Assembly: GCA_001600635.1 (NCBI GenBank)
Contig: BCKL01000027.1
Coordinates: 99,075-163,074 of the forward strand
Source of the DNA: Leucosporidium creatinivorum
Taxonomy: Eukaryota > Basidiomycota > Microbotryomycetes > Leucosporidiales > Leucosporidiaceae
Direction of reading: 5' to 3'
DNA length: 64,000 bases
The notes under the pieces were generated by a model. The model saw nothing but the letters and a program-made list of their open reading frames with translations, ran no database searches and was not told where the DNA came from. Of the stretch, positions 1 through 17,702 are shown piece by piece. The position numbers were made by a program, and so were the translations under genes. Position 1 is the stretch's first letter; each line of letters begins with the position of its first letter.

Positions 1-639
1 ACAGCGAGAAGATGGCGAGGTGCACAAGCTCAAGCTGCTCTCTCGTGAGCTTTGAAGTCGGCGCCGAGCTGGAGGAGGGCAGCTGGCGAGGAGAGCGATC
101 AGGCAGGAGGAGGCCCCCGCTCGCGGAGGGTTTGTGCGTCACACCTCCTGTTCGGCTTTTCGGGGTTGGATTGTTGTTAGGTGAAATGCACGCTACAACG
201 GGATTAGACTTTTGTAACACAGTGCCACTTCTTGCAGTTCCCTTCAATCGTCTTTTGCTGCGCCGAACTGAGACAACTTCCGCTTGACGAGTCCTCTGTA
301 CATCCCTACAAAATTCTCTCCCGGCTTCAACGACCTTCGATGAGTGATGTTCGTACAGGAGACTTGTTCTCGATTAGGGAAAGCTCGGCCGAAGTGGTAA
401 GGGACGTCGCGCTCCTCTCTCGCGCCGAGCCTGCTCCTGCCTGCTCGTCCCAGGCGAGCGAAAGAGCGACTACAGGAGGCAGCTTTGTAAAGGGTTACGG
501 AAGGGCAAGCGGAACAGCCGATGCCTATTCTTGAAGTGCCGAACGCCGAGCGCCGAGTTGCTTCGCCTTTCCCTCCGAGTGAGCTGTACAGAGCGACTCG
601 CCGACTTGCAAGTTGGCCTCCAGCATACCAAGTCTTATT
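1..639. other. no recognisable gene at left edge
   Basis: Short overlapping open frames on both strands, none with a family motif or a consistent exon-intron pattern. It lies 3' of the CKS1-like locus and is probably the outer part of the duplicated mosaic. Confidence 0.4.
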
Positions 640-3223
640 TTATACTCCAATTTGGAATTGGAGGAAGGGAGAGATGGTGAAGAGGTCGAGCGAGTCGGGA
701 AAGTCGGACTCGGCGCCGAGGTGGGTGTGAGGATGACGGCGAGGGGAGATGCTTGAGCAGCGAGGTTCTGCAGCAAAGGAAATCAGCCACTATAGAAGCA
801 AAGCAGAGCAACCGCTGAAGCTCACTTCTCTCGCCGTAGTCCTTCTCGCGCTTGAACAGGAGGATGTGAGGCTCGGGGACTGGAGAGAAGAGAGGCGAGT
901 CAGCGGGCGCTCAAAGGAAGGTCAGAGGTCCGGCATTGTTCGGCTACCAGATGGTCCAGCTCATCAGCGAGCCCGGCCGCTGTTCTCAGCAGCTGAACTA
1001 TACCGGAGCGAGAGCCGAGCCGAGCGGGTCGTCAGACGCCACGAGAGGCTAAGTAGTTACTCGGAGAGAGAGACGGCAGCAGTAACAGTGGGTCCGCCAG
1101 GCCTGTTGTCTGCTGAGCCCCACGGAAACGCGCCTCGACCTCCGAGCAGGCCGCACACTCTCGAGCTTGACCGCTCGGCGAGGCTTCCTGTCTTGATCTC
1201 AGTCGAGACGCAGAGTAGCCCTCGATAAGCGAGGCAAGACAGCACCTGTCCATCAATTTTGTCTAGCTACAGCTTGCTGAAGCCAGGCAGCAGCGAGAGG
1301 AGCGAGCCCGAAACGAACTCCCATCTCTCCAGTCCCCTCGTCGACGACATAGCCTCTGATGCCAGTCAGAGAGAAGACAATACTAGGAGCACCTCACCGG
1401 CATGCCCAACTACTGCCCTGCAGCGGCCAGGCCACACCGCAGAGTGCTCGAGTCTGCCTCCTCACGTTCCTGCTAGGTCGTCCGTGCTTTTCCGCTCGAT
1501 GCCATCGGGAAGACGAAAGGCGAGTGCACCATCTGCCAGCATCAGCGAACGGGTCAAGCGCCCTCGCGAGCGCTTGGCCGCGGAGAAGCGAGGTCGGCTC
1601 GGCTCCAGCAGCGAAAAGGTGCTCATCGACCAGCGCAAGGCGCCTCATCCAGCGACGAGAAGAAAAAAGAACAGCCGTAATGAGTAGCACACCGGCACCA
1701 TAGTGCTGCTGAACCATCCCGAAGCCTATCCTCTGTCCCTCGGCCTCGGCTTGAACCTACTCGGCGTCCCTCTTAGCTCCAACGCTAAGCGGAGTCAAAG
1801 CGAAGTGAGAGCCGTTGGGATTGACATCTCACTCGATGGGCCCAGCCGCCGCAATGAGCAGCCGAGCCGCGTCGAAAGCCCGCTCGGCGTCGCCAGCTTC
1901 CGGTCCTCCTTCGCCCGAGCGGCCGTCTCACCTCCCGAGCGAGTGCGCAATGACAAGCTCCGGCAAAACGGACATTTTCTACACCGCCTATCAGCCGTGA
2001 CAGCGACTCCTTCGAGTAGTTGACTCGCGCCGAAGCGAAGGCGAAGGACTGCTCGACCGTCCAGGGAGGCGAAGCGAAGCCAAGTCCGGCTGCCGGGCGA
2101 GCACAGGATCGTGATGAGAGGGGTTACTACTGGAACAGCCAAGCTTGCTCTCGCACAGCCAGGCTGCCTCGAGCAAGGCTCGGCCTCAGCGACCTCTGAG
2201 CGCTCCTCCGTCATCGAGAGCGAGTTGCAGGGTTTGTACAAGGCAGCCCACAGCGAAGTAACACTCTCAAACCAGCGAAGCTACTCCTTAGAGCAGCCAG
2301 ACCGCGTCAGAGAGCCTCGGCGCCGTCCCCTATAGCTTGCTCCTTCGCAGAAGGGCCTGCCTGCTCTGAGCAGGAACACGACCATTACGCCCATGAGCGA
2401 CCAGGTGCGCCGACATGTCACTCAGCCGCGCCAGCTCACCCGAGATGAGCGCCGAAAGGAGGAGAAGCAAGGTCGCTCGCTGGCTCCGAGCCACGCTCCA
2501 CGAGCGAGAAGTGGCGCTGTAGCTCAGTACGAAGCGAGAAGAGAGCTGTCCGCCAGTTCAACAACATCAAGTAGCCAGCTGAGGCATTTGTCCCGCCGAG
2601 CTACCTTGATTCTGCCAATGTTAGCCGAGCCCCCTCGACGCCGCTGGATGGCGAGCCAATGCGAAAGCTGGCCAGGGCAAGGACGCTCCCATCAAACATC
2701 TGGCCCTCCATTTGCGCTATTGCACAGTTGAAGAGACCAAAAGACGTGAGCGAAGCTGACTGCCCTTGTCCGAGCTCGGCAGCGCCTTGAACGGAGCCGT
2801 CAGCGAGGGCTCGTCGTCTAAGGGTTCATCAGACAGCGGCACTACCCTCGAGTAGTAAGACTGCACCGAAGCGAGTGGCCGTGGCCTTCGACTCGACCGA
2901 GCAGCGAACGCCGAGATCCGTGCTCTTGACCAAGACGCGCTGGAGACCAAGTGGGACAAGGGCTATGAGGGGGCAGCTCTACTCTCCGAGTAGCTCTGCC
3001 CTCCCAAGGCCCGCTCCTTGCTCCGTAAACCAGCTCCCGCTCGACGCTCCCTCTACATCACCTCTCCTCCTCCTTTCCGCCCAGCCCGACCCGGCCATCC
3101 CCATCCCCATCTCTGCCGCTCATCGCTCATAAAGTAAAGTGACAACTCACCATGCCTCAAATAATGCTCCCACCCCGGACTCTGCCTAATGCCCAACCCC
3201 CTCCACTCGTCCTCCTCGGCCAT
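640..3223 (-). CDS. second CKS1-like locus, N-terminally shortened
   Basis: A duplicated cyclin-dependent-kinase subunit gene, inverted relative to CKS1 at 9056-12180. Exon A (3223-3151) starts at an ATG in good context (GTCGCCATGG) and encodes the CKS segment EEDEWRGLG...GWEHYLRH. Exon B (879-826) encodes [16 protein letters not shown]. The proposed exon C (767-640) runs to a TAA and is not CKS-like. Spliced length is 255 nt, in frame. Intron A-B is 2271 nt, with an intact donor and a GCTGAC/acceptor pair. Exon A differs from CKS1 by one synonymous base (GGG for GGT). Exon B has synonymous CCT and CGC, Ala to Val at the junction, and 2 extra bases at its end. The N-terminal third of the CKS fold ([13 protein letters not shown]) is missing, with an in-frame stop just upstream of the ATG, unless an upstream exon joins at the AG three codons earlier. 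It is either a pseudogene or a shortened paralogue. The homology is clear; function is unknown. Confidence 0.55.
880..3150 (-). repeat. diverged copy of the CKS1 intron-2 sequence
   Basis: The intron of the CKS1-like locus. It aligns inverted with CKS1 intron 2. For example, 1390-2070 matches 11560-10880 in reverse, with frequent small changes. The first ~75 nt after the donor (3150-3075) are nearly identical to 9742-9816, whereas the interior is much more diverged. No transposase, integrase or reverse transcriptase motif was seen in any frame. Confidence 0.6.
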
Positions 3224-3639
3224 GGCGACCTATCGTCTCCGCTGCTGCACTACTTCTCCAAGGAGAAGGTGGAGTGCAAACCTAGTCATTTAGAACCGCC
3301 TGACTACTCAGCGAGCTCAGCTTCCCGCATCTACCCAGTGAGCTCAACTACTCAACGAGCCGCCGAACACGACTGAAGAGGCGAGGCAAATCAAACTGCT
3401 GGGAGCTGGGCCCGAGCTGTGAGAACTGATCTTGTACCCCGAGCTAGCAGACATTCGAAGCGCACAAACAATCGATACACAGCTGTAGCTCACTGCAGCC
3501 CAGCCACGTCGTTGTAGGCTTCTCGGGGCACGGCGCCGAGTGTGCGAAGCGCGTCGTTCTGCGAGCGGGCGAAGACAGCATGTCTCGTTCCATACAAGAG
3601 CTGTGAGCTGACGTAGAAGCTTGAACCCGACATCAGGCC

Positions 3640-5174
3640 GTCCAGCCACGCAAATGCGCGGCCGAACGACCCCGAAACGAAAGATGGCGCTCACTCCGTC
3701 GACCGAGCTCCACGAGCAGTACTGCCGGCGAGTCGAGCCACTGCGGCTCTCTGGGAAACCGGGGCATCTTTCCAACCTATTGGCCAGCGCGACGACTCTG
3801 AGAGTAGCTGACCTGCACCGAAGGGAGCTAAGCGGCGAGCCCTCCACCAGCTCGAGCCGAGGGATGCCGCCTACCACTCTGAGAAGGTCTAGCAGCGTGG
3901 GTGGAAGCGGCGAGGAGGACCCGCGCATTCATCGCAAAATACGAGCTGTACACCTCCGCAGGCCCGCCATCCCGAAGCCTGCGCGTCTCAAGACCTCTCG
4001 GCGCTACTCCCTCCGCTGAGAGTCTGCTGTCCTCCGTGCCTTCAGCGGACTTCTAGTCGGAGACTGCCGCAGCGCAAATCTTGGCGGCGTGAAGCAAAGT
4101 CGACCAAGCCCGACAGCAGCGATCCCTGCTGCTCTCAGAGCGGCAGAGCCACGCCGAAGAAACGAGTGTCGTCCGGCGCGCCTTGTCCGAGAGGCGTTGT
4201 AGAAGCTGAGCTGGTCTACAGCACAGCTTGTGACGGCATCAACCGGCAAGATCATAGGCTGACCTCGCTGTACGCAGGTACAGCGAAGCCACACCGATCC
4301 CTCGCCCTCGGCCGCCTCCGAGAGGCCTGCTTCGGCGCTCGCCATCCTCCAGCTCATGACTTAAGACCAGTCCATCACACGCAAGAAGACTCACCGTCGG
4401 TCTCTTGGCGTCTTCTCTACCATCATGCTTCGATCCCAAAGCCTAGCCCTGCCGCCCATTCAGCCGAAGCCAGGTCGCCGAGTCGTCCAAAGTCGAGCCG
4501 AGCCGAGGTGAGAGGTCGAGGAGGCAAGGGCGAGGGCGCTGTAGATGAGTGGAGAGGAGAAGGTGGCAGAGAAGAAGGGGGAGTGCTGTAGGTCGATAGA
4601 AGCGAGTGAAGGGGAGGGAGAGGACCGGCGAGGGCTGCGAGCGAGCGAGCAGAGGAGGAAGAAGAGGTCAGCGAGTCTTGTACAGCAGCAGCAGCATTAT
4701 GTACCCTTTCAGATCGCTGCACCGCCGCTTTACTGCTCCCCTACAGCTCCCCGTCCCGTCTCTCCTGTCCTCCAGCGCCTGCAGCTGGCTCTTCGCCTCG
4801 GGTGTAGCTCTGTACTCACCTCAACCAACTCTTACCGCGCAGCGCAGCAGTCCATGCCTACTCATCTACATCCTTTCTACAGCTCCCACACCTGTCCTTC
4901 CCTCGTCTCGGCCCAAGGCCCTCCCGCTCGAGCTTCAAGGTGACGCGTCTCTCTCACCAAGGGCGGTACAGCGAGGTGTGATGTAGTAGTGCAGTGGTGT
5001 AGAGCTGTACCCTATCAGGTCATGTACATTGGCGAGCGATTCGAGTCGAGATGCAGAAACGACGAGGTGAACGTGGGAGGGAGAGAGGTGAAGCGGCGCC
5101 GACGGGGTGAGTTGGCTCAAAGCAGGAGAGATGCACGGGTGTAGAGCAGAAGGCTCAGCAGAGTGAGGCGTCAA
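3640..5174 (-). repeat. upstream repeat block, inverted copy
   Basis: Four landmarks occur here in the same order, reversed, as at 12840-14300: about 3650-3860, 4260-4350, 4460-4760 and 5000-5170. Similarity is patchy but extends over most of the block, and is best near 4460-4760. On the minus strand it lies just upstream of the CKS1-like exon, as its + strand copy lies upstream of the third intron-like copy. No coding potential was recognised. Confidence 0.55.
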
Positions 5175-5449
5175 ATAGGATCTGCCTGAAGGAGCCAGCT
5201 GTAGCTCGACAGATTTTGCTGCACTCCAGCGCCGAGCTCGGCGATGATCTCACTTTCTCTCCTCAGGGTTCCGCAGCTTTTACAGCTGTTGCTCTGCATA
5301 CAGTCGTGTATATTGAACCACTCCCCTCTATCAGCACCTGCCTCACGGCTCTCCTCCCTTGCCTCGAGCCCCAGCTCGGTGCTCGGCGCTCGAGGCTCCC
5401 CCCCCTTTCGTCTTCCGTGCTCCCTCGCAAACCCACACGCAAGTAACTC

Positions 5450-7023
5450 TTATCGGAAAGCGTCTACTACTCCCTCGAAGACGAAGAAGCAGACCTGTCT
5501 CGAAGATCGGTCAGCTCTCCTCCTTGATCTCACTTGCCCTTCCCCTCTCCGTGTTGTCCACCCTGGCAGTAGCATCCAGACTCACCATATTAACCGGCAC
5601 GCTCCTCGCCAGCGTCGGGCCCAACCCTCTCACAAACACGCCCGCTCCCTCGGTCTTGTAGGAATGCCGGAACGTCGAGAGGAGGGTGCGGTAGGGATGA
5701 GGTGCAGCGGGAGGGGCGCCGGGGAAGAGGGAGGGTGAGGAGGAGAGAGTGGTGGCTTGCATACGAGTTTTAAGGACGTCTATTGGGAACCTGTGGGGGG
5801 AGAGAGAAGGAGCCGGTCAGCGAACTCGGCTTCGGCGCTCGCCGTACGACTCCTTCTTTCACCCGCGCTCGACTTCAGCTGTCACTCGAACAAGATCCGA
5901 CTCACGTCACTCCCCATCCCACGATCCCCGCCAACCCCCCAGCAACCAGCACTCTCCAACTGCCGACCTCCCTCCTCTCCCTCTCGACCTCACTGGCCCT
6001 CCCCTCTCCACCATGTTCCGGGCTCGCCCCCTCCCATCTACATACCGCATGATACGCGACAAAATATGGCCCATAAGCTAGATCTCGGAGAAGAGTGGCG
6101 GGGAGGCCGCGGTAGAGAGAGCGAGGGGAGTGGGTTCGGAGGAGGGAGAGGAGGGAGGGTTGGGCGTGCGTGGGAGGGGCGGATTGTTGTAGGATTTTGA
6201 GACGCTCGATGGGAGTTGTTAGGAGTCTGTGTCGCTCCCTTGTCATTAGCAAGGGAGAAGCAGGGAGAGCAGGGAAAAAGAGGACCGGACGAACGATGTA
6301 ACCACTCCGCTCGCTGCTCCCGCCAGCCCTATCTGCGTTAACGTTGGTTCGGCAGTGGGTGAGGAGAGTTGCGCATCGATGACGAGTTTGTAGATGCCGA
6401 ACACGGAGGCGTTGATGGCTGCTATGCCTAGCTGAATCGCGCCGAGAAGAGTATGAGCGAGCGCCGAGAAGGGAAAGGAAGGGACGGCGGACCATGGGAG
6501 ACATCTATTGAGGTAGCAGGTTAGTTGAAGTATATCTCGACATCGAAGTCCGACTCACAACACCTTTATACAGCCCTCGAACCTGCTCACATCGCCCATT
6601 GTCAGCTCAGCTCCTCCCCTGGTCTCTTGAAAGTGCCGAACTCACCTTCTCCTCCTTCAAGATAACCTTCAACGCCTGCACACCACTAGTATACGGCGCA
6701 TGCCCCGTCGGCGGACTCTGCAACCGCACCTACAGCAGCACGTGAGGTGGTCAGCGCGCTCAGCTTCTCTGTTCCAGCTGTTTAAAGGGAGAGAGAAATT
6801 CACCTTGATAGTATCGAATGGTTGTCCAGTAAGTAAGCTCGCTACCCCTGCTCGTCCGTAGCCCCATCATCGTCAGCTCAGCTCAGCTCAGCTCGACGAC
6901 GAAACAGCGCGTCCTCCCTCCTCAAGCCGGAGCAGAGAGGGAAAGCTACATACCTGCTACAGTGCCAGCGAAGAAATCTAACCGTGCGTCGATGGGAGCT
7001 GCTTCTGCTGCTGCTGTTGCCAT
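5450..7023 (-). CDS. mitochondrial carrier (SLC25) protein
   Basis: An inner-membrane solute carrier of about 300 residues with the usual three repeats. The start is the ATG at 7023, giving MATAAAEAAPIDARLDFFAG. Repeat 1 has PFDTIKVRLQ, repeat 2 TTPIERLKILQQ and repeat 3 FPIDVLKTRMQ, matching Px[DE]xx[KR]x[RQ]. GLYKGV, SLYRGLPATL and VRGLGPTLAR follow the repeats as expected. The protein ends FEGVVDAFR. At least six introns are needed; one (6227-6294) uses an unusual GTTCGT donor. The overall pattern resembles the carnitine/acylcarnitine, ornithine and Ymc1 group, but the substrate cannot be assigned from sequence alone. The gene ends 410 bp upstream of the NBP35 stop and is transcribed in the same direction. 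Confidence 0.88.
6874..6893. repeat. short AGCTC tandem repeat in an intron
   Basis: About four copies of the 5-mer AGCTC inside an intron of the mitochondrial carrier gene. It is a simple microsatellite. Confidence 0.6.
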
Positions 7024-7435
7024 CCTTGCTGTAGCGAGATGCGAGAACGAGGTGAAAGGGAGAGAGGCAAGCCGTCGGAGCGTTTGGCGCGCGGAGAGGG
7101 CGATGGTGAGTGAATGCAAGGACTTTTGTGCAGAGAGGGCGAGAGCGATTTGGTGGAGGGAAGTGATGGGCGAAAGGTGAAGGCTCGCTGTAGCTCTGTA
7201 GAAACCATCTCGGCGCCCGAAGCTCGGCTTTCGTTTCTCTCCGGCCGTCGAGTCGCGTTGTAGCTCTATCGAGACGGTATTGCAGCTGTATAGTGGGAAA
7301 AGATGAAAGGGCTACATATGGACGAAGAGGGTGTAGTACGACAAGGAGAACGGCGAGGGTGTGCAAGTTCGGCGAGGCGGAGGGGGTGGGAGAGCCGGGG
7401 GTGGGCAAAGGAGGAAGTGAAGGAGAAGTGGTCGA
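7024..7435. other. intergenic, carrier promoter and NBP35 3' end
   Basis: About 410 bp between two minus-strand genes. No convincing coding frame. It should hold the promoter of the carrier gene and the terminator of NBP35. Confidence 0.5.
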
Positions 7436-8796
7436 TTAGGCCATAGCAGCGGAAGGAGGGAGGGCGTCCAACTTTGCCTTGATGCCTGTCGAAGCGAATC
7501 AGACGAAATGTCAGCTCAGCGCTCGTCTTCCAACGGTCCTCAGCCCACAAAGCGAAATCAAAGACTCACGCTGTACAATCCTGTCATACTCCTTACTCGC
7601 CGGTGACTCAGGATACTCCTCGAGGAAGCTCACTCCAAAATCACAGCTCTTGCCAATCCTCGGATCCAGAGGCACCTTTCCGAGCACCTCTGTCCCCCAC
7701 TCCCTCGCCAACTCGTCCGCTCCACCAGTGGAAGGGATGAAGATATCGCTCTCCCCACCACACGAAGGACAAACAAAGCCCGCCATATTCTCCACGATGC
7801 CGAGGATGGGTACGCCGACCTTGCGGCAGAAATCCAACTCCTTCCTCACGTCCTGGAGGGCGACCTCCTGCGGCGTAGTAACGATGACAGCTCCATCGAT
7901 CCCCGATTCCTTGAGGTACGAAACGACGCTCAAATGCTCATCGCTCGTTCCCGGCGGGGTATCAACGACAAGGTAATCCAACTCTCCCCAATCGACATCC
8001 TTGAGGAACTGCTTGATGATGCCATTCTTTTTTGGTCCTCGCCAGATTACGGCGGAGGAGGGAGAGGGGAGGAGGAAGCCTATGCTGATGAGGGAGAGGT
8101 TGGAGGAGACGGGGATGGGTAAGAGGCCCGAGGAGGTCGAGTGCAGCTTTTGGGATTGCAGGCCGAAGAGGAGGGGGAGGGAGGGGCCGCAGATGTCGAT
8201 GTCGAGCAGGCCGGTCTGGGGCAGAGTAGCGGGAGCGATGAGGTGCACAGAAAAAGACGGCGAAAGATCAGCTCGGCTTCGGCTTTCGGCTTTCCCTCTC
8301 GGCGCTCGTGTACTACGACCCTGGGACATACCTGGACCTCCTCCTCAGCACTCAGCGCCCACCCCAACATGCCACTAACGGTACTCTTTCCCACTCCACC
8401 CTTCCCACTCAGCACCAACACCTTCCTCTTGACATCCTTGAGCCGATCCCTCACGGCGGCGATATCAGGATCCGGCCCCTTGGGAGCTGTACTGCAGGCT
8501 TCTTGGTTTGGACAACCTGCGCAGCCGGGAGCGGAACCGGCTAGGTCGGATTCGGTGCCCTTTTGGTACAGAAAGACCAAGGTGAGTAAGCGGATAAGCT
8601 GAGCGAGCACGGAGAAGAGGACGAACGGGACAGTGCTCAGGTGCATTTCTAGAGTGCGGTAGTAGTCAGTCAGATGCTACTGCTGCTGCTGTAGCTTATC
8701 AGGCTGTCAAGAGACTACTCACTCTGGGATGTTTGAAGGCAGCAAAGTGGCGGTCGGCAAAGGTGCCTCTAAGGGGGTCGTTTCGAGTTGTACCAT
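7436..8796 (-). CDS. NBP35: cytosolic Fe-S cluster assembly ATPase Nbp35
   Basis: A P-loop scaffold ATPase of the cytosolic iron-sulfur assembly machinery, which works with Cfd1. The N-terminus carries the Nbp35 cysteine motif: EHC, then [10 protein letters not shown] after about 13 residues. This separates it from Cfd1 and the mitochondrial Ind1. The deviant Walker A reads [21 protein letters not shown] and [14 protein letters not shown] follow. The C-terminal FVCPSCGG (CPxC) motif binds the bridging cluster. The proposed start (ATG at 8796) opens with [20 protein letters not shown]. Two early introns split the cysteine motif region, the second (8560-8626) with a GTTCGT donor. The last exon ends LPPSAAMA and stops at 7436. 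It is divergently oriented to CKS1, whose ATG lies 260 bp away, so they may share a promoter region. Confidence 0.93.
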
Positions 8797-9055
8797 CTTG
8801 TAATCCGCTATTAATTACTCCTTAGTCGAGGCTAATCGCAATTGTGAGTTGTAGGACGATACGAAGGTGACGGTAAGAGGGAGACCCTTGAACCTCTCTC
8901 GCTGAGCTCTCTTTCGCTTCTCCCGCTCGCTCGTCGCTTCGGCTCAGCTCGTCTTCAGCTCGTCTCAACAGCCAGTCTATCGTCCTACACGTTTCTGGCT
9001 TCTCTACCAGCCTTCAGCCCTACCGCCCTACAGCCCTACAGAGCCCGACTCTAAA

Positions 9056-12000
9056 ATGGCCACCAAACGCGCCCCTTCGAACCCTGCCATCAACCCCGAG
9101 CAAAAGCGGCGCGACATTGAAAAGTACTCCGAGTCCATCTTCTACAGCGCTAGGTACTCAGGTGAGTCAGAGCCCCGGGCTGTTCTGTAGGCTTGCAACT
9201 CGAGGAAACGCGAGTTGGATGAGCCAGACGCGTCCAACGGCGGTCGTGTGCTGTGATGTGCGGTACAGGGGAGGAAGAGGACAGCGTGCGGATGGAGAGG
9301 AGGTTGTAGGACATCAGTCGCGCTCGCTTGAGGCGACCGCGCTGGCTGCTCAGGTGCAGAACCTCGAGGAAACCGGCGCGTCGAGCTGAGGGCGCGCTGT
9401 TTGGTGCTATTGGAGGGCGTGTAGGGGAGTAAGAGAAGGTTCGGAGGCAGCGTCAGATCTTCAGCACTACCACCTCTGCACCACATCACTAGCTGACCCG
9501 TTCTCCTTTTTCGCTCTCCCCGCTTCGCCATCGCCTTCGCCGCCCCCTTCTACCTCACCCGCCCTCACGCCATCCCGCTCACCGCTCCAAACACCAAAAG
9601 ACGACGATTTCGAATACCGTCACGTCATCCTCCCCAAAGCGCTGGTCAAATACCTCCCCACCGACCGACTGGCCGAGGAGGACGAGTGGAGGGGGTTGGG
9701 CATTAGGCAGAGTCCGGGTTGGGAGCATTATTTGAGGCATGGTGAGTTGTCACTCTACTTTTTGAGCGATGAGCGGCAGAGATGGGGATGGGGATGGCCG
9801 GGCTGAGCGGGGCGGGCGGAGAGGATGGGAGGCGATGGAGAGGTCGCAAGCGCCGAGCGGGAGGTGGTTTGAGCAGCGAGGAGCAGAACTTGGGAGAGCA
9901 GGGTTCTTCAGAGGGACAGCGCTGCTCTCTCATCGTCTAGGTCCCTCTCGACTCGAGCGCGTCCTGAGTAGGCGCGTAGGTCTCAGCGTTGGCTGCTCGG
10001 TCGAGTCGGGGGCTGCGCTCCGTACCCTTCGGTGCAGTTCTACTACTCCAGAGCAGAGCAGTGGATCTGACTGTTGAGTGGCTGGTGGAGGCTGCTTGCC
10101 TTTACGTTTTTGGGCTTTCACCGTCGGCTCCGACGAAGACGACGACGAGCTCGGAGGAGGGCAGCTGGCGCTCGCGGCTTTTAACTTCTTCGGCTGTGCG
10201 AAAGCGCAGATGGAGGGCCAGATGAGCGCTGAGTGCGTCCGTGCCATGGCCGAGTTCGTCATCGTCTCGACTGCTGGTCGCAGCGAGGGGGGGCTCGGCG
10301 AGCGTTCGCAGAATCGAGGTAGCTCGGCTGGACGAGCATTCAGACGGGCTGCTCTTCGCGCTCTTTCTGTTGGGCCTCCGGGTTCTCTTTGCGCTGCATG
10401 CTGAGCTACATCACCAGTTCTCGCTTGTGGAGCGTCGCTCGGAGCCAGCGAGCGACCTTCTCCACTTCCACTCGGCGGCGCTCAGCCCATCTCGGGTGGG
10501 CTGGCGTGGCTGAGTGTGATCGCGGAGGCCCTGGTCGCTCTCCAGCGTCGAGCGTGTCGATGAGGTCCCGGCTCGGAAGCAGGCAGGCTCCTGCAGGGAC
10601 ATGCAGCCTACGGGGTCGGCGCCGAGGTTCTCTGGTGCGGTCTGGCTGCCCAAGATGGGTAGCTGAGCTGGCTAGTTTGTGCTCTCGTCCCCCGTGGACT
10701 ATCTCCCTTTGTGCCGGAGATCGTCACTTATCAGCCTTCAGTAAGACGGCGCTGCTCGCGGCGGCCGAGCACGTCAAGCGCCCGAAGTAGCCTGGCCATG
10801 CAAGAGCCCTACTGGGGTATTCCAATCATCGTGCTCCAACATGCGACTCTGAACTTGCCAGGGTATCCACCTCGGCCTCGTTACGTTTCGCCAGACGCTC
10901 GAGCAGCCCGTCGCGTTCGCTTCGACAAGAGTCAGCTGCTCGAAGGGGTAGCTGGCTCGGTTGTTAGACAACGTCGGGGGTTGCTGCTGGCGCACGAAGG
11001 GTTCTGGGGCTGAGGCCGCCAAGAGGGCCAGTCAGCTGGCATCGCCGACCCTTTCGATGCGGCTCGGCTGCTCGCTGCGGCGGCTGGGCCTATCGATCAA
11101 GAGGTTGTCGATCCCAGTTGCTCTCACTTCGCTTCGACTCCGCTCAGCGCTGAAACCCAGAGCAGACGCCGAGTCGGCTCAAGCCGAGGCCGAGGGACAG
11201 AGGATAGGCTTCGGGATGGTTCAGCTGTACTAAGGTGCTGGTGTGCTGCTCATCAGCCTCCTTTTCCTCTCGTCGCTGAATGGGGCGTCTCGCGTTGGTA
11301 GATGAGCACCTTTTCGCTGCTCGAGCCTAGCCGACCTCGCTTCTCCGCTTCGGCCGTGGTCAAGTGCGCGCGAGGGTGTTTGACTGCGCTGATCATGCTG
11401 AGATGCCTGGTTCTCCTGCGACGGAATCTGCTAGACCGAGCTGTCGAGCGCAGACGACCTAGCAGGAACGTGAGGAGGCAGACTCGAGCACTCTTCGGTG
11501 TGGCCTGGCCGCTGCAGGGCAGTAGTCTGGCATAGCGATGTAGAGCTCGGTTCCTTGATCTCGGCTTATGCAGCTGCCCTGGCAAGTAGAGGCTCAGAGC
11601 TCGCTCGGCTGAGCAGGACTGGCAGCGAAGTCACTCGGGCTTCCCCTTCGCTGCTGTCGAGCTGCAGAAAACTGCAGCGAGGCATCCGTGGTGTTCGAGC
11701 TCAATGACTCGTGATTATTTGACGAGAGCGTCGTCTCCGTCAAGGCCATGGCACGAGCTTCCACGAGCTCTAGACGTCGTCGATCGCAGCTGCTCGGGAC
11801 TGGAAGCGCTCTCGGTAAAGTGCAGCAGATGTCTTACCTGCTGTACTCACTGCAGGGCATTTGCCTCGGAAATCCGAGCACCTGCTCGGCTTCGGTAGCA
11901 TTTGAGGACTGGGGCTCAGCCCTCGCTTCGGCATAGCTCAGCTGCTTCGAGCGGCGGCTGGGCTCGCTGATGAGCTGGGTGGTCGCCTCTCACCGAAAAA

Positions 12001-12180
12001 TGATTTACTCTGCTACTTTCTCTGGAAGTCCCGCTGACTCATCTCTCGCCTCCTACAGCTCCCGAGCCCCACATCCTCCTGTTCAAGCGTGAGAAGGACT
12101 ACGGCGAGAAGTGAGTCCTTCGCCGCGCTTCCCTTCTCGCCTCCACTGACTGTCCGCTCTACAGGTATCCCGCCGCATGA
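9056..12180 (+). CDS. CKS1: cyclin-dependent kinase regulatory subunit Cks1
   Basis: A small CDK-binding adaptor of the cell cycle that reads phospho-threonine. Four exons (9056-9161, 9601-9741, 12059-12110, 12165-12180) give 315 nt, that is 104 residues plus stop. Family hallmarks are [25 protein letters not shown]-type [18 protein letters not shown], and [11 protein letters not shown]. The protein ends KDYGEKYPAA, without the polyglutamine tail of S. cerevisiae Cks1. Intron 2 is 2317 nt (9742-12058), several times longer than any other intron I could define here, and is repeated elsewhere in the window. Donor, GCTGAC branch and acceptor are intact, so splicing is expected. Exons 2 and 3 have near-identical inverted copies at 3151-3223 and 826-879. 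Confidence 0.93.
9742..12058 (+). repeat. 2.3-kb CKS1 intron 2, repeated sequence
   Basis: This intron has related sequence in inverted orientation at 880-3150 and, more diverged, in direct orientation at about 14640-16100. Shared landmarks include 10900-10960 with 14990-15045, 11315-11400 with 15430-15510, and 11650-11690 with 15765-15800. The open frames inside are not protein-like on inspection. It could be an old non-autonomous insertion or simply an expanded intron. Confidence 0.6.
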
Positions 12181-12839
12181 GCACCTCTCGTTCTCACCCC
12201 CATCTCGGCCCTCGCCCCTCGACCTCACGAATCTCTCGCCTCGCTCGCAAACCTTCATCCATCTCTCGCCCGCGCAAACCCACCCACCATCGCTATACCT
12301 CTCCCGCCCCTCGCATCACGACAAAAACGACACACCCTCTCATACTTCCACTTTCGCCCTTCCAATCCCTTTCACCTCGTTCCCTTGCTTTCCCCTCACG
12401 CCCCTCCCTTCCCTCCTCTCTGTCGGCTTGCGGCGACGGAGGCACGTTACATACGACCCCACATGATACGGCAGTGGACTTGTGTGCAAATCAAGTTTCT
12501 TTCTGCGGCAAGTTGGAGCAAGCCCGCTTGGGAGGGCGAGGCGAGAAGCGAGAGACATGTTCGGCACGGGGCTCGGCGAGGATGCAAGCTGCCAAGCTGC
12601 TCGAGTGCTCTTGTACAGCGTCCCATCGAGACAACGTTGAGTCTCAGCTGCTCGCTCTCAACCAGACGTCTGAGAGAGTTCGAGCCTTTGAAGTGTCGCT
12701 CGGAGAGGGAACGCCGAGCAGCGACTCGAGCAGCAGCGATGACATGGGGAGCTGAGCAGGCTACAGAGCCTCGAGGGGAGATTATAGTAGTGAGCTACTT
12801 ATGAATCGGGCTCCGTTGAGCGCCTTTCGCTGCAGCTCG
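12181..12839. other. CKS1 3' flank without recognised gene
   Basis: Pyrimidine-rich on the + strand (12180-12430), probably CKS1 3' UTR and flank, then degenerate sequence. No supported gene. Confidence 0.4.
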
Positions 12840-14300
12840 CCCACCGAGCCAACTCATCCCTCGGCGCCGCTTCGCTTCTCTCCCTTCCACGCTCACCTCG
12901 TCTCTTCTGCCTCTCGACTCAAACCGCTCGCCAATGAGCGGTACTTGACACCCTACAGCTCTACACTGCTGCTCTACTACACTACACCTCGATGTACCGC
13001 TCTCAACGGGGAGAGAGATGCGTCACCTTCAGGCTCGAGCAGGGAGGGGAGGAGGAGGAGACGCTCGGGGTGAGAGCAGTAAGCGATGCTGTGGAGGAGC
13101 GGGCGTAGGTTGCTGTGCTGTAGGAGTGGGGCTGCAAGTGAGTACAGAGCTATAGGCGAGGCGCGGAGTACTGAGACAGCTGCAAGCGGGAGCGACGGTG
13201 ACGAGGGAGCTGTAGGGGAGCAGTAAAGCGGCGGTGCAGCGATCTGAAAGAGTACAGGATACTCTCGCTGCTGTACAAGACTCGCTGACCTCTTCTTCCT
13301 CCTCTGCTTACTCGCTCGCAGCTCCCTCTCCGCCCCTCTCCCTCTCCTTCACTCGCTTCTATCAACCTACGGCACTCCCTCTCTTCCTATACGCTCTCCA
13401 TTCCCCCAGCCGCCTACAACACCCTCTCCCTCGCATCGTCGACCTCTCGCCTCGGCTCGGCTTAGGACGACTCGGCGACTTGGTTTTCGATGGACGGGCA
13501 GCTGAGGTTAGGACGTTGGAACAAGGTGCTGGGGAAGGCTCATGACAGCGAATAGTGAGTCTCATTGCGTATGAGGGACTGGTCAGGAGCTGGAAGACTA
13601 CGAGCGCCGAACGATGGCTCGGCTCGGCGTCGGCCGAGGGCACGGGATCGGTGTGGCTTCGCTGTACTGGAGTGCGGCGGGATCAGCTGATGGTCGTGTT
13701 TGAGGCTGTTTGTCTTCTCATGACTCGTGCTGCAGACGAGGGCAGCTCCACGAAGCCTACCGGCCGGGCGCGGCGGACGACTCTCCCACCTTCGGCGTTG
13801 CTGTGCTGCTCCGAGAGTAGCAGTGCTCATCGATGAAGATGAGCGATGGGATCCTCTTCTGCACTTCGGCGCCCGTGGTAGTGACTTGCACGTCGCTGAA
13901 AGTATGATGGGCAGTAGGCTCGGCGAAGGAGGAGCAGCCGAGAGGGCTTGAGGCGCGCAGGCTCCGCGGTAGCTGGGTTGCGCAGGTGTGTGGCTGGTCT
14001 GTTGCAATTGCGAATGCGGAGAAGCTCGTGTCATAGAGCCCCACGTCGCCGGTGCTGCTCAGAGCGAGACCCCCCCCCCCAGCAAGCTGGAGCTGGTCGA
14101 GGGCTTATTGCGCCGCTCCCTTCGGTGCAGGTCTGCTACTCTCAGAGTGGTCGAGCTTTCTGATACGTAGTGCTGAGGGCGCTCTCTGTCGAGTTGTATT
14201 GGCTCGTCTAGTCGGCTGTACTGCTCGCGGAGTTCGGTCGACGGAGTGAGCGCCAACCTACGTTCCGGGGCTCGTTCGGCCGCGGTCTTGCGTGGCTGTC
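12840..14300 (+). repeat. upstream repeat block, direct copy
   Basis: Reverse-complement counterpart of 3640-5174 with collinear landmarks at 12870-13020, 13200-13360, 13400-13490, 13560-13670 and 14060-14290. It contains an 11-base C run at 14070-14080. No coding potential recognised. Confidence 0.55.
14070..14080. repeat. poly-C tract
   Basis: An uninterrupted run of 11 C inside the repeat block. Confidence 0.8.
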
Positions 14301-14639
14301 TCACCTGATGTCAACGATCGGCAGCTCCGACTGTACTCCCGGCTCCTGCGGCGGCGAGTCCAGATTGCTTTGCCCGCTCGGAGACGCTTTTCGCACTGTC
14401 GGCGCCGAGCTCGAAAAGTCTACGCCGACATGGCTCGGTCTAGTGCGCTAGAGCTGAGCTGTTCGATGATATTGCTTCTGGCAGTTGCGCCTGGCGCAGG
14501 CTACAACCTCGCCTTGTGGTCAACTCGTGCAATCCGAGCCGAGATCTGAGCAGTCGGCTTTGAGCTCGTCATTTCAGTTTCTTGTGGCCGCTCGACGAGT
14601 AGCTGATTCCGCTGGATAAATAGGGCACGCATTGGCCAT

Positions 14640-16100
14640 CAAAGGGGAGCTGCACAACGTAGCCTCTCGCTTGAACAGCTCAGAGGAGGATTGGCGCGCC
14701 GAGGCTCGCTGGCGCAGTTCGGCCGCTCTGAAGGGCAGCTAGGCTGGCTCGTCGATGATCTCGCACTCCGCAGATCTCAAGCTACTACTGGTGACTGGAG
14801 CGCACCACTTCTCAGCAAACCCGTGTTGCCGGCGGGGAGGAGCACCTCAAGCTCGCTGAGGAAGGGCTTGCTCGAGGTAGCCTGGCTGTGCGAGAGCGCG
14901 TCTGGGCAATCTGAGTGCTGGGGGTGTTCTTCACGATTCTGTGAACTTGCCATGCTGTAGGGTTCGGCTCCCTTCTCGCCTCGCTAGACGCTCGAGCAGC
15001 GGTTCACCTTCGCCTCGGCGCAGGTCAGCTGCTCGAAAGGGTAGCCGGCTGGGCTGATGTTGACCGAAGTCGCCGTTGACTCGCTGAAGCTTGGCGTTGC
15101 GCTTTCGGAGTTGAGATAGTGCGTCAAGCACCGGAGGACAGGAAGCTGGCAGCGCCGAGCGGGCTTTCGATGCGGTTCGGCTGCTCGTTAAATTAGTCGG
15201 GCTGGTCGATAGCTCCTTCAGTCGTTGACGGCTTACAGAGTGCTGTTCGACTCATCTGCTCGTGGTTTAGCTCTGCAGCAAACAAACGCAAGCTCGGAGT
15301 TGATCTCAAGAGATAGAGTAGGGACCTCGAGATGCTTCAGCTGCACTGACATGCTGATGAGGATCTCATTGAGCTCGACTTCCTTCGCTGAGTTGAGCGT
15401 GTCGGGCGACATTGAGCATATTGCCTCTACTGAAGCCGAGCCGACCTCGCTTCTCCTCTTCGGCCGTAGCCAAGTACTCGTGAGGGTGCTTCAATCATGT
15501 GCTGATGGTGATGAGACAGTCTCTCGCACTTCTTCCCCATTCGTCTGCTAGGGCTGAGGTCAAGAACACAGACGAGTTGGCAAGCGGGTGAGGAGGCACC
15601 CCCGAGCTCTCACCGGCGTGTCTGGCTGCTGCAACGCAGTAGCTGCGCTTGGTGTAGAGGGTATCTAAGTGCCTCTGTCGTATTCGGCTTCCGCCGGCCA
15701 GCAAAGGCTGAGCTAACTTCGGCGACCTAGACTAGCAGAGAGGCCGCTCAGGCTTGCTCTCGCCGCTGCTGTCGAGCTGTGAAACGCTGCAGCTTGTCAA
15801 CAGCAATCGCTTGAACTTGGTCGATCGACTTACGTTGTCATCTCCCCAAGCCCTCGGAGGTGATAGCTGCTCGGCAGTGGAGTGCTCGAAGTCCGACAGC
15901 AGGGTCCCAGCTTGCTGTCCTCTTTGATGCTACGTCACCACTCGTGGAGTAGCTCTTTATCTCGCTGGGAAGGCCAGCAGCTGAATCAGCGCTCTTTCAC
16001 TCACCGGCGGCGCTCAGCTGGCACACCGTGCTGCAGGACTTGCCAGTGCGGTGGTAGTAGTACCATTCGCCCGGCTTCGGCTTTGTTGATTCTTTGAGAA
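14640..16100 (+). repeat. third, most diverged copy of the CKS1 intron-2 sequence
   Basis: Direct-orientation relative of CKS1 intron 2, recognised from several ordered short matches (14990-15045, 15150-15200, 15430-15510, 15765-15800, 16060-16110). I found no remnant of CKS1 exon 2 or exon 3 at the expected flanks, so this unit is intron-like only. Confidence 0.45.
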
Positions 16101-16702
16101 GGGTGGACATCGACGACAGCGCATTGCTTCTTGAGGACGTCGTGGTCTGCTCGGCGCTCAATTGCTCGGTCCCGGTTTCGCTGAGCTACTTTCTGAAGTG
16201 CTCGGCGAGCTGGTAACTTCTTGCGCGGGAGCGTCAGATTCTCTGCTCTGTCCTCTCATATGCTCGCTGACCTTTCTTCGTCCTCCGACAGCCCCAGCAC
16301 CTCCGCCCTCGCTTCGGCGCCGACAAGCAAGTGCGGCGCTCAAGCTGGCAGTCGGCTCTTCAAAGACTCACCCGCTCTTCTCGTACATGTCCGCCCGTCG
16401 TAGTCCCGCGTCCAGGGCCGCTTCAACAGGCTGTACTCGAGTAGGGCGGTTGTATGAGCTGGAGACTACCGCCGAGCAAGGGAGAGACGGTCATATCGAG
16501 TCTGGGGAAACCCAAATGTAATCTAGCATGCTCGGACGTACCGAAAGTGCTACCATACGCGACTGCTACCGACCTACAGCGAATTCTCACCCAACTTTCG
16601 ACTCGCCTCGCCCGTCTCAGATGTCGATCACACATTGCTCTTTGCCTCTCTCCGCTTCGCTTGTCTCTTCCTCCTCGCCCGCCGGACAGACACTGTACGA
16701 AG
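16101..16702. other. CENP-A upstream region
   Basis: About 600 bp between the last repeat block and the CENP-A start. No supported gene. Presumably the CENP-A promoter. Confidence 0.4.

Positions 16703-17702
<1,000 letters not shown>

Follow-up and report, generated by a model that had tools for sequence, protein, structure and literature searches.

The second set of CKS1 exon sequences in this DNA (the window is the whole stretch analysed, 64 kb long, with a GC content of 59% and intron-rich genes) most likely represents an unprocessed, 5'-truncated CKS1 pseudogene, which lies within an inverted segmental duplication and in which short tracts have probably been homogenized by gene conversion. 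This left copy is truncated and permuted relative to CKS1, it shares patches of high identity with the gene, and these patches disregard exon borders; the fragment is presumably not expressed. The intact CKS1 gene, identified by profile and structure comparison, occupies positions 9056-12180 of the plus strand, and its four exons (9056-9161, 9601-9741, 12059-12110 and 12165-12180, +) encode 104 amino acids. The product matches the Pfam CKS family (PF01111) with an E value of 4.5e-34 and is near the budding and fission yeast CKS structures in a comparison with solved structures. A search of viral and prokaryote contigs returned no CKS1 relatives, as expected of a eukaryote gene. Intron 2 (9742-12058, +) is 2.3 kb long and, if retained, would terminate the CKS1 frame shortly past residue 82. 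Beside CKS1 lies a split histone H3-like gene that encodes a long N-terminus (16703-17701, +); because its best solved-structure match, fission yeast CENP-A (Cnp1; E 7e-50), outranks canonical H3 (E 2e-44), it is probably a centromeric histone gene.

On the minus strand of the left copy, positions 3151-3223 correspond to a truncated CKS1 exon 2 (codons 59-82; 71 of 73 columns identical to 9669-9741, with a match to Pfam CKS), positions 880-3150 to intron 2 and positions 826-879 to exon 3 with two bases added at its 3' end, the last assigned by alignment and nhmmer. That the 3' part of exon 2 (3222-3151; nhmmer E 7e-15) and exon 3 (879-826; E 2.5e-9) recur in inverted orientation cannot be attributed to chance given these values and the Pfam CKS match of the fragment (E 2e-16), which covers profile positions 34-68 of 68 only. 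The sequence-only reading had described two inverted exons with few differences, and exactly these differences were recovered, including the two bases added at the end of exon 3. In the 120 aligned coding nucleotides, three silent differences (Gly75 GGT>GGG, Pro86 CCC>CCT and Arg93 CGT>CGC) accompany a single replacement, Ala83 GCT to Val GTC, in which two bases are changed. The valine is, by alignment, the residue of fission yeast p13suc1. The splice sites, the ATG and the in-frame stop that had been noted are also present: the spliced frame of 84 amino acids has GT/AG sites, a last intron of 58 nt and a TAA near 640. Its ATG was created at the junction of the exon-2 copy, where CKS1 has CTG (Leu58), and its product comprises about 40 CKS residues followed by an unrelated tail. 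The tail comes from a downstream frame (640-767, -) that is open by chance; neither CKS1 exon 4 nor its TGA is conserved there, and the exon 4 region is identical at 9 of 16 positions, which equals background. Neither alignment nor nhmmer found a copy of exon 1, the 5' half of exon 2 or the upstream/promoter region of CKS1 in the left block. With the stop of exon 4 gone and a 2-nt insertion, essential parts of the gene are thus missing or broken, and the fragment does not contain the complete CKS domain of four strands and two helices.

The homology extends well beyond the two exons that had been recognized to recur, as it covers about 4.4 kb in two blocks. The first, A-B, lies at 669-3222 (-) and is equivalent to 9670-12267 (69.2% identity over 2696 columns, E 0). 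The second, C-D, lies at 3320-5135 (-) and is equivalent to 12831-14630 (70.2% over 1874 columns, E 0); its source or partner, assigned by alignment, is non-coding DNA 3' of CKS1 on the plus strand, which has no Pfam match in any frame. Position 5135 down to 3320 on the left thus matches 12831 up to 14630 on the right, and 3222 down to 669 matches 9670 up to 12267, each at about 70%. Following the direction of CKS1 through the left copy, one meets the downstream block first and then the CKS1 block. Because the two blocks align in exchanged order, the left copy represents a circular permutation, in inverted orientation, of the 3' half of CKS1 and the DNA downstream of it. The donor ends 9670 and 14630 adjoin inside the copy, separated by 97 nt of filler at the D/A junction (3223-3319), whereas the outer ends of the copy correspond to the neighbouring donor positions 12267 and 12831 and are too diverged for microhomology or short indels to be judged. 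The filler has no other convincing match within the window. It holds a coding-like plus-strand frame, GDLSSPLLHYFSKEKVECKP, whose peptide matched nothing convincingly in either the PDB or the window.

This arrangement resembles the human segmental duplications mediated by circular DNA, in which the block order changes from A-B/C-D to B-A/D-C (PMC7450558); here the change is from A-B/C-D to C-D/A-B, and the two donor ends likewise meet within the copy. The duplication described here differs from the human cases in being about 4.4 kb long, inverted, a few kilobases from its donor, old and in a fungus, and in having a 97-nt filler and a 564-nt gap instead of clean breakpoints (PMC7450558). A tandem intermediate would yield the same permuted order as a circle. 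An assembly error was considered, but the identity of about 63% outside the high-identity tracts appears far too low for a duplicated read.

Compared with CKS1, the left exon pieces carry four silent changes and one replacement (dN/dS 0.05, Fisher P 0.005), which would be in line with an expressed mini-CKS gene under purifying selection, whose 84-amino-acid product would have the CDK-binding loop as well as helix 2 and strands 3-4. The open spliced frame with its splice sites and ATG would also suit such a gene, as would the rank of the exons among the most conserved stretches and the Ala-to-Val change to the residue of fission yeast p13suc1. However, CKS1 itself is constrained, and simulations that paired a neutral left copy with a constrained CKS1 gave P 0.04-0.2 for no more than one of four or five differences altering an amino acid, the range being set by the transition bias and by whether the CT>TC doublet is treated as a single event. 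The excess of silent changes is therefore not decisive. The argument that the silent sites themselves are too conserved was found to be weak (4 differences at about 23-26 silent sites versus 24% of ungapped non-coding columns, P 0.23). Tracts within the intron are conserved to an equal degree, the fragment has neither exon 1, the CKS1 promoter, strands 1-2 nor part of the phosphate pocket, and its 3' tail is unrelated to CKS1, the stop of which is gone. We therefore regard a functional mini-CKS gene as improbable.

The distribution of identity along the duplication supports the pseudogene reading. A two-state segmentation of the left-right alignment called 13 high-identity tracts, two of which hold the exons. 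The tract with exon 2 runs from the breakpoint through the exon and into 61 nt of intron with 2 differences in those 61 nt, and deep within the intron the tract at 11453-11526 has 1 difference in 74 nt (98.6% identity). Of the non-exonic alignment, 18% lies in tracts, where identity is 93%, and the remainder is 63% identical with gaps counted. Such patchiness exceeds expectation: the longest perfect non-exonic run is 47, whereas none of 1000 permutations exceeded 38, and the standard deviation of identity in non-exonic 50-column windows is 0.121, against at most 0.077 in shuffles. Transitions and transversions stand at 37:19 within tracts and 444:452 outside; as transitions dominate only inside the tracts, these appear to be recent, and the rest old and saturated. 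Both large exon pieces sit in tracts even though so small a share of the non-exonic alignment does; jointly, they are equalled or surpassed in conservation at only 13 of 4609 shifted positions, and the level of exon 2 is reached by only 5 of 4186 non-exonic windows. High identity nevertheless follows patches regardless of exon borders and is not a property of exons. The earlier contrast between conserved exons and a diverged intron therefore holds on average, with the block as a whole about 69% identical (gaps counted), but not for the intron tracts of 90-99% identity, which match the exons in conservation.

Judged from the alignments, selection on a protein cannot account for the intron tracts, and patchy gene conversion between the inverted copies, which is probably their cause, would explain them better. 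The sequence-only reading had offered selection or repeated conversion from CKS1. Conversion, combined with a pseudogene, gives the best fit, since tracts span exon and intron alike; exon conservation through selection on a second functional gene is left unsupported, because the patches cross exon borders, because exon 4 with its stop has not survived and because neither exon 1 nor the promoter region is present. Like other unprocessed (duplicated) pseudogenes that are converted by their parent, the left copy has kept an intron of its parent, with intron 2 aligning over its full length, is truncated at its 5' end, has no parental promoter and carries near-identical patches; unlike them, it has patches that include intron, and the copies are inverted, about 6-11 kb apart. 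The alternative suggestion of a young pseudogene is borne out in the noun only. Exon 1, the promoter and the stop are lost, but identity of 63% with gaps outside the tracts and transitions no longer in excess of transversions (444:452) show that the duplication is not young.

A third, more diverged copy of the body of intron 2 (10619-11678) lies in direct orientation at 14696-15793 (+; 63.4% identity over 1132 columns, E 2e-86), and nhmmer found no CKS1 exon matches in it. Three copies of the intron body, one of them within an unusually long intron, might suggest a decayed mobile element inserted in and near CKS1 intron 2 that carried exon pieces along. We think this very unlikely: no mobile-element protein was found in frames of 1-5600 (-), 1-4100 (+) and 9000-16500 (both strands), the homology on the left extends through the exons and beyond the CKS1 stop, and there are no further copies within the 64-kb window. 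The strongest left-right tracts are less well matched in the third copy: between left and right, identity at 11165-11253 is 92%, but between either of them and the third copy it is 57%. When alignment positions were labelled by which two copies agree, the observed clustering was reached in 0 of 5000 shuffles. Where left and right are locally more alike, they also tend to be more like the third copy (Spearman 0.54, P 0.002), and because of this correlation some sites may be constrained or a variable mutation rate may contribute. Partial conservation of the third copy at the same sites and the perfect inverted stretches between left and right (49, 47, 46, 42 and 42 nt) could also be expected if the tracts were conserved non-coding elements or gave rise to RNA from the inverted copy, such as an antisense or hairpin RNA on CKS1. 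Since no RNA family was found with Rfam and the tract at 11165-11253 does not extend to the third copy, we give little credence to this possibility. Elsewhere, 31 nt of the left intron copy (2147-2177) are 97% alike in the third copy (14867-14897), and the CKS1 intron differs there; because this likeness is absent from the CKS1 intron, it suggests exchange among all three copies.

The sequence-only reading had further proposed that the product might bind phospho-targets but not CDK normally, which is backwards. The phosphate pocket of human CKS1 comprises K11, R20, S51, W54 and R71 (PMC3930463, Table 1), and CDK2 is contacted mainly through loop 58-64, which inserts into it (PMC3930463; PMC10318019). 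The left fragment keeps the equivalents of S51, W54 and R71 and of the CDK2-inserting loop, whereas the equivalents of K11 and R20 fall in the missing part; if expressed, it would therefore be expected to lose phospho-binding. Measured against the CKS1/Suc1 family (PF01111), the fragment has kept helix 2, the HxPEPH loop and strands 3-4 and has lost helix 1, strands 1-2 and the K11/R20 equivalents; the absence of strands 1-2 would probably prevent it from folding into a CKS domain. That the fragment is transcribed and acts on CKS1, as a CDK-binding, phosphate-blind competitor peptide or as an antisense or hairpin RNA with the tracts as its working parts, seems to us a far-fetched prospect.

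The pseudogene reading would imply the following history. A segment from the middle of CKS1 exon 2 (9670) to about 14630 would have been copied and its ends joined, through a putative circle or a tandem intermediate; the joined segment would then have been opened somewhere between 12267 and 12831 and integrated, with its orientation reversed, 4-5 kb away. Its non-coding parts would afterwards have drifted to about 63% identity, while short exonic and intronic tracts would have been repeatedly homogenized by gene conversion between the inverted repeats, which would account for the lasting resemblance of the exon pieces to CKS1. Genes for a mitochondrial carrier and for an Mrp/NUBP-type P-loop NTPase lie between the inverted copies (5600-8800, -), and recombination between these copies could flip both.

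In summary, the case is ordinary in kind and instructive in detail. Where inverted repeats undergo patchy conversion, a copied piece of a gene can mimic selection, with exons that remain alike and changes that are mostly silent, and the fair yardstick for such exons is the non-coding tracts in the same duplication rather than the mean of the intron. In addition, its permuted order makes this small duplication a candidate for a circle-mediated origin in a fungus.
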